A stretch of DNA of 20,209 nucleotides. Source: a virus. Under the pieces are notes generated by a model. That model searched no databases. It saw nothing but the letters and a program-made list of their open reading frames with translations, and was not told the DNA's origin. Below, in pieces: positions 2,493 through 17,422 of this stretch. Both the position numbers and the translations under genes were made by a program. Numbering within the stretch: position 1 is the stretch's first letter; every line of letters begins with the position of its first letter. The stretch is from the IMG/VR virus record IMGVR_UViG_3300020200_000236, positions 1 to 20,209 of that record; one strand, 5' to 3'.

Positions 2493-2529
2493 CTTTACTA
2501 TGAATATGAGTTCATACCTCAGGAGAATA

Positions 2530-3105
2530 ATGATAATGTCTGTATTAGCAAAATCAATGCCATCAAAAGAAGTATTAGAGAAATTGCTTTACTATGATCC
2601 AGAGGCTGGAAAGTTATATTGGAAGATAAACCAAGGTGGTCAAAAAGCAGGTATCGAAGCAGGATGGATACATACTCTTTCTGATGGTCGACAATATAGG
2701 AGAATTCGGATTCAAGGAAAGAAGTATCTTGTACATCGAATTATTCTTGAGATGAATGGCTATAGTTTACGACAAGATCAAGTTATAGATCATGAAAACG
2801 GTGATGGACTTGATAATAGACCCGATAACTTAAGAGCTTGTACACATCAACAAAATACACAAAATAGCCGCGTACCTAAAAATAATAAAACTGGTCATAA
2901 AGGTGTTAGCTTTCGTAAAGACAATCAAAAATATTATGCGCGTATAACGCATAATGGACGCGCCTCGATTTTGCCCGACTCGACTGGTAAAAAGTATTTT
3001 GATACTATCGAAGAGCCTATTAAACTTCGAAAAGCAGCAGAAGAAGAGTATAATGATAAATTTAAAGCTTTCTACAAATGTTCCACAAATGCATGTATGT
3101 TATAA
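2530..3105 (+). CDS. HNH homing endonuclease with C-terminal AP2-like domain
   Basis: This is a free-standing HNH endonuclease of the kind that invades T4-like genomes and cuts DNA at specific sites to spread itself. The N-terminal part has the YDPEAGKLYWK entry motif, then LVHRIILEMNGY, then the HNH core VIDHENGDGLDNRPDNLR. The C-terminal part (NNKTGHKGVSFRKDNQKYYARI onward) resembles an AP2-type DNA-binding domain. I chose 2530 rather than 2500 because AGGAG lies at 2521-2525 and the promoter start is near 2499. It sits between uvsW and the small genes before gene 55, with its own promoter and a long hairpin over its stop codon, so it looks like a self-contained insertion. A close paralogue begins at 19904. 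Confidence 0.9.
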   Translation: MIMSVLAKSMPSKEVLEKLLYYDPEAGKLYWKINQGGQKAGIEAGWIHTLSDGRQYRRIRIQGKKYLVHRIILEMNGYSLRQDQVIDHENGDGLDNRPDNLRACTHQQNTQNSRVPKNNKTGHKGVSFRKDNQKYYARITHNGRASILPDSTGKKYFDTIEEPIKLRKAAEEEYNDKFKAFYKCSTNACML

Positions 3106-13943: not shown

Positions 13944-15542
13944 ATGATTAATTTTATATTGAAAATATTAATTGGCTTATGCATTTTGGGATTTCTTTTT
14001 ATATTTTTTATCAGCATAGCTAAATCAAGTGAAGCACGCGACGAAATTCGGATCGTCGGGTCTTCGACGGTGTTTCCCTTCGTGACGGCGGTAGCGGAGG
14101 AGTTTGGCCGCGCCGGTGGGTACAAGACGCCAGTGGTCGAGAGTACTGGCACGGGTGGCGGCTTTAAGTTATTTTGCAGCAATGTCACTGTAGATTCACC
14201 TGATATTGTAAATGCTTCGCGAAGGATCAAGAAGTCTGAAATCGAAATGTGTGCCAAGAACGGCGTCGGCGACATCCACGAGGTGAAGATCGGCTTCGAT
14301 GGCATCGTGCTGGCGCATGCCAAAGGCGCGACGCCGGTCAAGTTCACGCTCGCGCAAATTTGGCAGGCGCTGGCTAAAGATGTAATCGTGGACGGCAAGA
14401 TCGTTCCCAATCCATACAAGATGTGGTCGGAGATCGACGGTTCGCTGCCTGCTACAAAGATAGAAGTGATAGGCCCACCACCAACTTCAGGAACACGTGA
14501 TGCATTTAACGAGTTAGCTATAGAAGGTGGCTGCAAGACCTTTCCCGAAGTCGAAGCGCTCAAGAAGGAGGACGAGAAGAAGTACAAGGCGCTGTGCCAG
14601 TCCGTGCGCGAGGACGGTGCGTACATTGAAGCCGGCGAGAATGACAATTTAATTATACAGAAAATTACGATTAATGAGAATGCATATGGCGTATTTGGCT
14701 ATAGCTTTTTCGATCAAAATCGAGACAAGATAGACACAATTTTGATCGATGACACCGAGCCAAGCTATGAGAACATCTCTTCTGGGGCGTACTCAATCTC
14801 ACGTTCGCTTTATTTCTACGTCAAAAAGGCCCATATCGGTGTCATTCCGGGCTTGAAGGAATATGTCGACCTCTGGACTCTGGAATCAACCTTTGGGCCT
14901 GAGGGCTTTCTTGTTGATAAGGGTCTGATTGTGCTGCCTGATGATCAACGCGAGGCGCAGCGTGCCTCGTCGGCAGTCATGGAGAATATAGCTATGATGA
15001 AAGATACAGATGCAGACACAGACACAGATGCGGCCGCTTTTATCACACGACTTGGCTCAAGGGCAATTGATATCATGAAGAGCGCACAATCTACTACGTT
15101 CGCGCAGCGCGAGGCGGAGTTTCGGATTCTACTTGAAAAGGGCTTTGATCTTAAAATGATCAGTCGCTTTATCATCGGCAAGCACTGGAGAGAGGCTACT
15201 GATGAACAAAAAGAGGCCTATGATGTCGTGTTCGCCGACTTCATCACGCGCGTCTACGCGGCGCGCTTCAACTCATATGGTGGCGAGACTTTTAACGTCA
15301 TACAAGCTGTAAATAATTCAAGCGATGATGTGTGGGTGCGTACTAAGATCAATCGTCTGGATGGCGGTCAGCCGATATCGGTGGATTATCGAGTGCGATT
15401 GATCGATGGCGTTTATAAAGTAGTTGATGTTATAGTCGAAGGCATTTCAATGATCAATACACATAGAATCGAATTTGCTTCGGTGATTAACAAACGCGGT
15501 TTCGATGGTTTGATCTCGGAGCTAAAATCAAGACTCAATTAA
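13944..15542 (+). CDS. secreted fusion: PstS phosphate-binding domain + MlaC phospholipid-binding domain
   Basis: The 532-aa product begins with a signal sequence (hydrophobic 4-27, likely cleavage after SSEA near 31). Residues ~33-335 form a PstS-type periplasmic phosphate-binding protein: GSSTVFPF at 39-46, ESTGTGGGFKLFC at 66-78, SGTRDAF at 182-188, and a SISRSLYFYVKK segment near 284-295. After an acidic linker rich in Asp-Thr and Asp-Ala (353-362), residues ~363-532 match MlaC/Ttg2D: FDLKMISRFIIGKHWREA, then YAARFNSYGGETF, then a VDVIVEGISM segment. PstS captures phosphate for the Pst transporter; MlaC carries phospholipid between outer and inner membranes. Phage PstS genes are known, but I know of no MlaC fusion. 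AAAGGAAA lies upstream of the ATG. Codon use alternates between GC-rich and AT-rich patches. Confidence 0.88.
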   Translation: MINFILKILIGLCILGFLFIFFISIAKSSEARDEIRIVGSSTVFPFVTAVAEEFGRAGGYKTPVVESTGTGGGFKLFCSNVTVDSPDIVNASRRIKKSEIEMCAKNGVGDIHEVKIGFDGIVLAHAKGATPVKFTLAQIWQALAKDVIVDGKIVPNPYKMWSEIDGSLPATKIEVIGPPPTSGTRDAFNELAIEGGCKTFPEVEALKKEDEKKYKALCQSVREDGAYIEAGENDNLIIQKITINENAYGVFGYSFFDQNRDKIDTILIDDTEPSYENISSGAYSISRSLYFYVKKAHIGVIPGLKEYVDLWTLESTFGPEGFLVDKGLIVLPDDQREAQRASSAVMENIAMMKDTDADTDTDAAAFITRLGSRAIDIMKSAQSTTFAQREAEFRILLEKGFDLKMISRFIIGKHWREATDEQKEAYDVVFADFITRVYAARFNSYGGETFNVIQAVNNSSDDVWVRTKINRLDGGQPISVDYRVRLIDGVYKVVDVIVEGISMINTHRIEFASVINKRGFDGLISELKSRLN

Positions 15543-15869
15543 ATGAATCAGTTTATATCTGATTCTTTATTGAAAGAAAGAATAATTTCGGCACTTAAAT
15601 CAGTTTATGATCCTGAAATACCAGTTAACATATACGAACTTGGTCTAATCTATGATATACAGATTAACACCGATAACGATGTATTTGTCAAGATGACATT
15701 GACTACACCTGGTTGTCCTGTTGCGGAACATATGCCTAACATGGTACGCTCGGCAATTCAAGAGCGCGTGGTTGAGGTGCGTACAGTAAATATAGAAATT
15801 GTATGGGAACCTTCTTGGCGACCAGATATGATGAGTGAAGCTGCACGTCTTGAAATTGGAATGTTTTAA
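15543..15869 (+). CDS. sufT: SufT/DUF59 (MIP18-type) Fe-S cluster assembly protein
   Basis: The 108-aa product has the family signature DPEIPVNIYELGLIYDI at 23-39 and TTPGCPVAEHMP near 54-65, with the conserved Cys58. It ends WEPSWRPDMMSEAARLEIGMF, exactly how alphaproteobacterial SufT/YitW/PaaD-like proteins end. These proteins help mature Fe-S proteins; their precise biochemistry is not settled. The ATG follows the stop of the PstS-MlaC gene without a gap, and no good ribosome binding site is seen, so it is likely translated by coupling. Codon use is AT-rich, like the phage core. Confidence 0.88.
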   Translation: MNQFISDSLLKERIISALKSVYDPEIPVNIYELGLIYDIQINTDNDVFVKMTLTTPGCPVAEHMPNMVRSAIQERVVEVRTVNIEIVWEPSWRPDMMSEAARLEIGMF

Positions 15870-16526: not shown

Positions 16527-16772
16527 TTAGGCCGCAGCAAGAGCACGGTAGCCAGCGGCAATGACCGCCCGAGAGGGCGTACCAAGACGGTAGAACGTCT
16601 TAGTCTGGCCCTTTTCGTTAGTACGCTGATTAGCATAAACGGGATACCCGTTCATACGTAGACTAGACACCAGCGCACGTACATTACCAATATCAAACCT
16701 CGCTTCAATTTGAGCCGCACTAAGCTCCTCACCAGTATTGAGTGCATTTAGAACACGTTCAATCTTAGACAT
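16527..16772 (-). CDS. small winged-helix/HTH-like phage regulator, 81 aa
   Basis: The protein starts MSKIERVLNALNTGEELSA and continues AQIEARFDIGNVRALVSSLRMNGYPVY, a helix-turn-helix pattern. A short wing (ANQRTNEKGQTKTFYRLGTPSR) follows. I recall similar small HTH proteins in many marine and alphaproteobacterial phages. AAGGAAG lies 5 nt upstream of the ATG on the minus strand. Its predicted leader contains a complete hammerhead ribozyme (16858-16806) and begins at a sigma70 promoter (16922-16894). Self-cleavage would leave a ~39-nt leader. Codon use is intermediate and less AT-rich than the core genes. Confidence 0.85.
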   Translation of the reverse strand: MSKIERVLNALNTGEELSAAQIEARFDIGNVRALVSSLRMNGYPVYANQRTNEKGQTKTFYRLGTPSRAVIAAGYRALAAA

Positions 16773-16794
16773 ACTAACTTCCTTATGTTGTTGA

Positions 16795-16811
16795 CAGTAA
16801 CATTACTGCCA
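16795..16811 (-). promoter_or_regulatory. post-cleavage 5' hairpin in the regulator leader
   Basis: On the minus strand CAGTA (16808-16804) can pair with TACTG (16799-16795) around a 4-nt loop. The CAG is also part of hammerhead stem I, so this hairpin and the intact ribozyme exclude each other. It could form only after cleavage or during switching. Confidence 0.4.
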
Positions 16812-16858
16812 TACAAGATTAATATCTTGTTTCGTTCTTCAGAACTCATCAGTGGCAG
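16806..16858 (-). ncRNA. type I hammerhead ribozyme
   Basis: Read on the minus strand from 16858, every element of a hammerhead is present in order. Stem I 5' arm CTGCCA (16858-16853) leads to the core box CTGATGA (16852-16846). Stem II GTTC/GAAC with TGAA loop (16845-16834) and the core box GAAA (16833-16830) follow. Stem III is CAAGAT/ATCTTG with ATTA loop (16829-16814). After the UA of the cleavage triplet GUA (16813-16812) comes the stem I 3' arm TGGCAG (16811-16806). All three stems pair perfectly. Predicted self-cleavage is between 16812 and 16811, 39 nt before the HTH gene ATG. A promoter at 16922-16894 would transcribe it. Confidence 0.93.
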
Positions 16859-16893
16859 AAAAAAGTTAGGCTCATTTAACCAATCATATGGCC

Positions 16894-16922
16894 ACAATAC
16901 CAGGCTTTGAAAATAATGTCAA
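16894..16922 (-). promoter_or_regulatory. sigma70 promoter for the hammerhead leader and HTH gene
   Basis: On the minus strand TTGACA (16922-16917) and TATTGT (16899-16894) are 17 nt apart. The predicted start is near 16887, placing the hammerhead about 30 nt into the transcript. The block around the -35 (16909-16924) is identical to 17409-17424, before the next minus-strand gene. Confidence 0.65.
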
Positions 16923-17048: not shown

Positions 17049-17387
17049 TTAGTAGTCATCGAGCGCGCGCACGTCGGCAAACACCCAGACTTGCTGGCCC
17101 TTGTCAAGGCCGCCGTTAATGAGTTTCCCCGACCACCCCATCTTGTTGCATAGGGCTTCAACGGCGCGAAAATGCCTCTCGTCGTTGAGCGCTCGCCGTC
17201 CTGCCGGCCACGTCCCCAGGCCTGTAACGTCATCGGGATAGGGGATCGAAACCTTGATGCCGCACCCGCTGGTGGCGCTTATTCGTGCGCCTCGAGTGTT
17301 CGTCGGCCCATGATAACGTGTGATGATGGCCTGCCTGTAACCACCAAGGTTTTCTACAGTTGAGGAAGTCTTCGTTCTATTTACCAT
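17049..17387 (-). CDS. small conserved phage/alphaproteobacterial protein, 112 aa
   Basis: The product has GGYRQAIITRYHGPTNTRG near the N-terminus and RHFRAVEALCNKMGW in the second half. This resembles small proteins common in phages of GC-rich bacteria (YRQAI-TRY-GPTN-RG type) with no known function. The open frame extends to 17525, but those codons are AT-rich and lie upstream of a likely promoter. I place the start at ATG 17387, close to the predicted transcription start, so it may be leaderless; 17393 is another option. Codon use is GC-rich, unlike its flanks. Confidence 0.75.
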   Translation of the reverse strand: MVNRTKTSSTVENLGGYRQAIITRYHGPTNTRGARISATSGCGIKVSIPYPDDVTGLGTWPAGRRALNDERHFRAVEALCNKMGWSGKLINGGLDKGQQVWVFADVRALDDY

Positions 17388-17393
17388 AATCAT

Positions 17394-17422
17394 ATGGTAT
17401 AAAAAATGGAAAATAATGTCAA
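17394..17422 (-). promoter_or_regulatory. sigma70 promoter for the minus-strand 112-aa gene
   Basis: On the minus strand TTGACA (17422-17417) and TACCAT (17399-17394) are 17 nt apart. The expected start is near 17387, which is itself an ATG, suggesting a leaderless mRNA. It shares a 16-bp block over the -35 and a 10-bp AATCATATGG block with the promoter at 16894-16922. Confidence 0.55.

Follow-up and report, generated by a model that had tools for sequence, protein, structure and literature searches.

A type I hammerhead in the leader of a phage winged-helix gene, with a stem I strand that also serves a hairpin opening the predicted 3' cleavage product

The hammerhead class, hammerheads in phage leaders and hammerheads placed before start codons are already known. 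The nearest natural precedents are HHphage of the haloviruses HF1 and HF2, for which a transcript 5' end was mapped within 3 nt of a cut that lies 13 nt before the start codon, and the clustered prophage hammerheads; in both, a phage gene begins a short way downstream of the hammerhead (PMC3088659). The nearest engineered precedent is RiboJ, an insulator composed of a hammerhead and a hairpin that raises transcript levels about 2-fold and protein levels 2- to 10-fold in E. coli; the raised output may, in the view of its authors, come from the terminal hairpin (PMC6206723). Hairpins of this kind have natural parallels, since 5'-terminal stem-loops stabilise mRNAs such as those of ompA and papA (work cited in PMC3997798). 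A 2017 review treats the roles of prokaryotic hammerheads as an open question and points to their persistent link with phages (PMC6155905).

Here we describe a hammerhead in a virus record with T4-like replication genes; the whole stretch analysed, 20,209 bases, is referred to as the window. With other type I hammerheads (Rfam clan CL00010, best family RF02275) the element shares the full core, three stems in type I order, a GUA cleavage site and perfect pairing. Its stem sequences and outer flanks are its own, and its score lies below the RF02275 gathering cut-off. The features of the locus are collected in Table 1.

Table 1. Features of the hammerhead leader and its gene in the window, in minus-strand order
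Feature	Position	Strand	Details
Promoter -35 hexamer TTGACA	16917..16922	(-)	block from 16929 to the hammerhead identical in L103
Promoter -10 hexamer TATTGT	16894..16899	(-)	spacer 17; predicted transcription start near 16887-16889
5' segment CCUAACUUUUUU (anti-SD)	16859..16870	(-)	complementary to the Shine-Dalgarno region over 11 positions
Type I hammerhead ribozyme	16806..16858	(-)	core and stem reading, Rfam, shuffles; predicted cut 16812/16811
Stem I 5' strand CUGCCA	16853..16858	(-)	pairs with UGGCAG 16811-16806, 6 bp
Core CUGAUGA (16852-16846) and stem II GUUC-UGAA-GAAC (16845-16834)	16834..16852	(-)	stem II 4 bp
Core GAA (16833-16831) and stem III ACAAGAU-AUUA-AUCUUGU (16830-16813)	16813..16833	(-)	stem III 7 bp
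Cleavage-site A17 (16812) and stem I 3' strand UGGCAG (16811-16806)	16806..16812	(-)	
Predicted product hairpin UGGCAGUA-AUGU-UACUGUCA	16792..16811	(-)	8 bp; re-uses stem I 3' strand
Shine-Dalgarno region AAGGAAGUUAG	16774..16784	(-)	
81-aa winged-helix protein, phrog_4973, Pfam HTH_39	16527..16772	(-)	profile match and structure model

According to the initial annotation, the minus strand has every core base and, arranged as in type I, three perfectly paired stems, and this reading was borne out base by base. The invariant core CUGANGA...GAA is complete together with the A15.1-U16.1 pair (A16830-U16813, counted within stem III), and every pair of the three surrounding helices is canonical. 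Stem I contains both ends of the chain, which makes this a type I hammerhead. Position H17, which must not be G, is A, giving the cleavage triplet GUA (NUH). Matches to the core pattern overlap and are confined to this single site in the window, while shuffled sequences gave 0.12 matches on average and none reached three; when 200 Markov copies of the window were scanned for the full structure, motif and stems together, none contained such a hammerhead. The core, the stems and the simulated-window statistics confirm the hammerhead as real. A covariance search, which the initial annotation had proposed as a check, found the element at a score under the curated cut-off: among all 4227 Rfam families the best non-chance match in the window was RF02275 (Hammerhead_HH9), with an E-value of 1.5e-4, at 31.8 bits against a curated gathering score of 52. 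That cut-off is a database threshold for a narrow subfamily and no mechanistic feature, and we therefore call the element a hammerhead rather than an HH9. The choice of HH9, an amniote family, as the best match reflects layout and not descent.

The setting is that of a short leader with its own promoter. TTGACA-17-TATTGT at 16922-16894 agrees with the consensus at ten of 12 positions, and the start codon (16772) lies 39 nt 3' of the predicted cut 16812|16811, so that the upstream sigma70 promoter and the HTH gene 39 nt past the cut, both claimed from the initial inspection, were recovered. The encoded protein matches phrog_4973 (E 9.5e-14) and just exceeds the HTH_39 cut-off (22.6 bits versus 21.3). 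An AlphaFold model predicts a confident winged helix (pLDDT 91), and winged-helix transcription factors are among its top PDB matches, the strongest of which has an E-value of 2.4e-3. The 14-nt TTGACATTATTTTC with which the HTH promoter starts has a second copy at 17409-17422 (-), upstream of a phrog_3199 gene (about 17049-17382, -), and might represent a shared promoter module.

We gathered viral contigs carrying relatives of the HTH protein with three single-protein queries and one alignment. Two of these queries were proteins already known to stand behind hammerheads, and the hammerhead-bearing share of the collection is therefore a biased frequency; with the window's own protein as query, 10 of 80 loci had a leader hammerhead. 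The family yielded 44 hammerhead matches among 191 distinct upstream stretches. Across the 284 HTH-selected loci (1.05 Mb), scans requiring an intact core detected 33 distinct type I hammerheads within 400 nt before the HTH gene and none away from its leader. Most HTH leaders in the family have no hammerhead, and the ribozyme is accordingly dispensable for the gene. Named relatives of the protein occur in Pelagibacter, Methylophilales and Stenotrophomonas phages, and the stretches upstream of them contained no hammerhead. A blastn search of the window region and two further leaders against named phages returned short weak matches or none, and a search of genome contigs found neither relatives with the protein alignment nor the DNA pattern.

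The hammerheads divide into three lineages, mutually unlike in sequence. Lineage a consists of the window and contig L103, whose leader is 99% identical with one difference, in the stem II loop; no further members were found. Its covariation sample is thus a single change in one other member, and its stems are not varied because L103, in which the HTH ORF is broken after about codon 9, is the sole companion. Lineage b (L005/L270/L274/L281/L284/L354) has CUGUCU or CUGCCU in stem I and GUCC-GUAG-GGAC as stem II, and lineage c (L020/L081/L211 and others) has UGUCA in stem I and a 5-bp stem II. The stems of lineages b and c consist entirely of canonical pairs (100%), with compensatory changes in stems I and III of lineage b and in stem II of lineage c; we count these two lineages as few independent events. 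With few columns behind the protein tree and many of its forks unresolved, we take gains and losses no further than three sequence-unlike lineages. The comparisons support the earlier proposal of a leader-processing type I hammerhead of a small HTH gene: within these loci, hammerheads whose stems differ turn up repeatedly before the same gene family and at no other place. In L103 (838-978), the HTH ORF retains the promoter, the hammerhead leader and its first nine codons, followed by sequence similar to the HNH endonuclease gene of the window (2500-3105); a mobile endonuclease has likely disrupted the ORF, by insertion or by replacement.

Three further features are absent from the initial annotation: the product hairpin, the stem I strand it shares, and a 5' segment that can pair with the Shine-Dalgarno (SD) region. 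For lineages a, b and c alike, the RNA immediately 3' of the cut can form a hairpin in which the 3' strand of stem I pairs with a copy, further downstream, of the 5' strand: UGGCAGUAAUGUUACUGUCA in the window, GACAGCAAGACUGUC in lineage b and UGACAAUAUUGUCA in lineage c. Defined by a stem of at least 5 bp and a loop of at most 8 nt, such a hairpin is present in 11 of 12 distinct HTH-linked hammerheads versus 15 of 135 other viral hammerheads (L103, whose truncated ORF escapes the profile, was entered by hand as HTH-linked), an enrichment that is strong and not conclusive, because three lineages are few independent events. Three loci (L005, L286 and L485) have no short-loop product hairpin and carry inserted RNA between hammerhead and gene. 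A per-sequence shuffle test with long loops allowed gave a weak result, and the argument is carried by the short-loop version (at most 8 nt) together with the comparison with other hammerheads. Covariation of the hairpin is uninformative alone, as only one side varies.

Based on these observations, we read the element, with a probability of about two in three, as a cis-acting co-transcriptional leader trimmer, in which the cut is followed by closure of a hairpin at the new 5' end and, in this phage, also licenses translation. An unlikely alternative, though the one that keeps most weight, is that an active hammerhead, in the way suggested for the clustered prophage hammerheads, merely separates the HTH mRNA from upstream read-through, the hairpin being incidental and no translational switch existing. 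Many other viral hammerheads do lie shortly before start codons, often several per phage and mostly without a hairpin; several HTH genes directly follow tRNA or tmRNA genes, and Perreault et al. propose that long phage transcripts are processed to gene-length mRNAs (PMC3088659). However, in many HTH leaders a promoter of the gene's own stands immediately ahead of the hammerhead, which leaves little read-through RNA to trim. The enrichment of the product hairpin at the HTH gene and the 5' hairpin retained by hammerhead-free relatives also speak for the trimmer over simple separation.

These hammerhead-free leaders offer a second line of comparison. Where they have a consensus promoter, a hairpin lies at about the predicted start site, with at least 5 bp in 47 of 59 distinct leaders. 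For the 46 with good promoters, the mean stem was 6.7 bp versus 4.7 +/- 0.2 bp in shuffled sequences, and stems of at least 6 bp occurred in 32 versus 11.6 expected (maximum of 500 shuffles, 19). Hammerhead-free homologues thus appear to use a 5' stem-loop of the ompA/papA kind directly. Two pairs of loci (L236/L238 and L254/L246) have identical HTH protein stretches, one leader of each pair bearing a hammerhead and the other the plain hairpin ACAATGTCAATAATGATATTGT, so the hammerhead has been lost or gained between near-identical HTH genes. The initial annotation had named uncompensated core substitutions in homologous phages as evidence that would speak against it; no such pattern emerged, with the caveat that hammerheads were located by scans demanding an intact core, and the hammerhead-free relatives mostly show a plain 5' hairpin instead of a decayed core. 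The exceptions are L042-L043, L215 and L221, in which only CTGATGA remains, inside a hairpin loop; for L042 and L221 this arrangement may date from after loss of the ribozyme or from before its gain.

The same leaders bear on a reading that we consider very improbable, in which the inverted repeat at the cut is a DNA operator through which the winged-helix protein regulates its own gene and the RNA hairpin is a by-product. The predicted fold and the transcription factors among its structural matches would suit such a role, inverted repeats close to a start site are typical operators, and a TGTC/GACA-like half-site is common to the three hammerhead lineages. Yet the repeats of hammerhead-free leaders differ in sequence between groups while holding their position and pairing, despite an HTH core that is well conserved among relatives, a pattern better explained by RNA structure than by a conserved DNA operator. 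Moreover, the repeat of the hammerhead leaders coincides with the cleavage site, at a good distance 3' of the promoter. Lastly, that the element is a hammerhead-shaped relic or chance motif which no longer cuts or matters is scarcely credible: the score under the Rfam threshold, the L103 leader kept ahead of a broken gene and the many hammerhead-less leaders would fit it, but not the perfect core and stems unmatched in simulated windows, the strict recurrence at one gene or the compensatory changes in sister lineages.

Returning to the co-transcriptional trimmer, we computed how the two structures would succeed each other. For partial transcripts of the window, stem I is predicted with a probability of 0.94-0.95 as long as no more than 16 nt follow the cut; the value falls to 0.82 with 18 nt and to 0.03 with 20 nt, at which length the product hairpin is predicted at 0.91. 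Constrained energies for representatives of lineages a, b and c place the events in the same order, the alternative fold being favoured by a calculated 1-6 kcal/mol once the downstream strand has been made; these energies describe secondary structure only, without tertiary contacts. The downstream strand of the product hairpin competes with stem I and could for that reason reduce cleavage.

A second computed effect concerns the ribosome-binding site. The lowest-energy fold of the window leader pairs CUAACUUUUUU of the 5' segment with AAGGAAGUUAG, and the predicted mean unpaired probability of the SD region rises from 0.06 for the precursor to 0.66 for the product. Only one of 300 shuffled 5' segments (0.3%) buried the SD region as deeply in the model. 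By run length alone, the 11-position complementarity is weakly unusual (p = 0.035), and three representatives of other lineages showed no change in SD exposure on cleavage. We therefore propose masking for the window lineage alone, with moderate confidence that the SD region of this phage would stay covered until cleavage. Anti-SD pairing as a general mechanism was rejected, as representatives of lineages b and c are without it.

Under the trimmer model, RNA polymerase would initiate at the TTGACA/TATTGT promoter, and the hammerhead would fold once stem I has been transcribed and cut ahead of the start codon, leaving the downstream RNA with a 5'-OH end. When transcription has moved some 18-20 nt past the cut, the freed stem I 3' strand would find a new partner in the downstream repeat and close a hairpin at the freshly made 5' end, which would release the ribozyme fragment, make the cut irreversible and shield the tip of the mRNA. 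Cleavage would also strip off the SD-pairing 5' segment, licensing translation in this phage, whereas RNA that misses its interval for cleavage would refold into the covered form. Sequence and statistics establish that the hammerhead exists, that it recurs before this gene and that its product begins with a hairpin, and the handover between folds and the exposure of the SD region come from computation; cleavage in the cell, protection of the mRNA and translational licensing are what we infer. More tentatively, at somewhat less than even odds, phages may have repeatedly put hammerheads of unlike sequence into the leader of one regulator family, each with one strand in common with a 5'-terminal hairpin. 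Cutting and capping would then be one timed event and a natural counterpart of RiboJ, with the cut here also uncovering the ribosome-binding site and licensing only RNA cleaved in a short co-transcriptional interval.

The comparison with described systems follows from this layout. RiboJ has the same order of promoter, self-cleaving hammerhead, hairpin at the new 5' end and ribosome-binding site (PMC6206723, PMC6993053), and in the window the hammerhead likewise stands between promoter and ribosome-binding site, its 3' product beginning with a hairpin. In contrast, RiboJ joins the sTRSV ribozyme to a separate 23-nt hairpin, while the window hairpin re-uses a stem I strand and the 5' segment removed is predicted to cover the SD region as well. 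HHphage differs in preceding a helicase gene and in its salt-tuned core variant; neither recurrence at one gene family nor a product hairpin is described in the accessible text of PMC3088659. The ompA and papA stem-loops share a paired 5' end shortly before the ribosome-binding site, but here the hairpin would be exposed by predicted RNA self-cleavage and bear a 5'-OH. Our literature search, mostly of freely accessible papers, turned up neither a hammerhead linked to a single gene family nor a product hairpin sharing a stem I strand, and the gene-linked, strand-sharing design of hammerhead and hairpin appears to be new. It would give phage hammerheads a concrete and testable role, a cut that leaves the messenger with a fresh hairpin at its tip, and it is a natural parallel to a standard insulator of synthetic biology. 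A hairpin that shares a strand implies a mechanism with specific timing, and the identical-protein pairs with and without the ribozyme are natural matched pairs for experiments.

Several other RNAs were observed at related loci. Six contigs (L005:2806, L286:1366, L426(-):2652, L438:634, L485(-):1259 and L094:11769) carry an RNA of about 110-190 nt after a type I hammerhead ending in ..GUCAGACAGCG, with the shared motifs ACCT..GGTGTAG, GCAAAG, GGTTAGA, ATCCGATA, GTGTAGGC.TCC and AAACCA. It has a poly-T end in several cases and is sited in tRNA arrays or between hammerhead and HTH gene; an Rfam search of the copies in L005, L286, L426 and L438 gave no match, and it may be a previously undescribed small RNA that owes its 5' end to hammerhead cleavage. 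Structured-looking inserts in HTH leaders of L271/L279 (CCGAGACGAAG..TCTCGG..CTTACTTC) and L021/L344 (CACGAGCG..AAGCCTGCAACGTG..GCAGG) could be other processing elements. The ideas of a twister ribozyme in L021/L344 and of another ribozyme in L271/L279 were dropped, as neither had a credible Rfam match.

The gene context also varies. Phage permuted tmRNA genes stand directly upstream of the HTH gene in nine contigs (L019, L020, L035, L036, L042, L043, L052, L054 and L081), with the tags ANDNFAPLALAA, ANDNFAPMALAA, ANDNANYGDYALAA and ANDNVSYGDYALAA. In the window itself, a PBP_like_2 (phosphate-binding-type periplasmic) domain fused to MlaC (13944-15542, +) is followed by an FeS_assembly_P (iron-sulphur assembly) protein (15543-15869, +) where GC content jumps from about 30% to 50%, and these may be auxiliary genes picked up by the phage. 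Finally, contigs L111, L123, L148, L400, L404 and L472 hold up to seven type I hammerheads each, many of them shortly before start codons, and look like arrays for gene-by-gene processing of mRNA.
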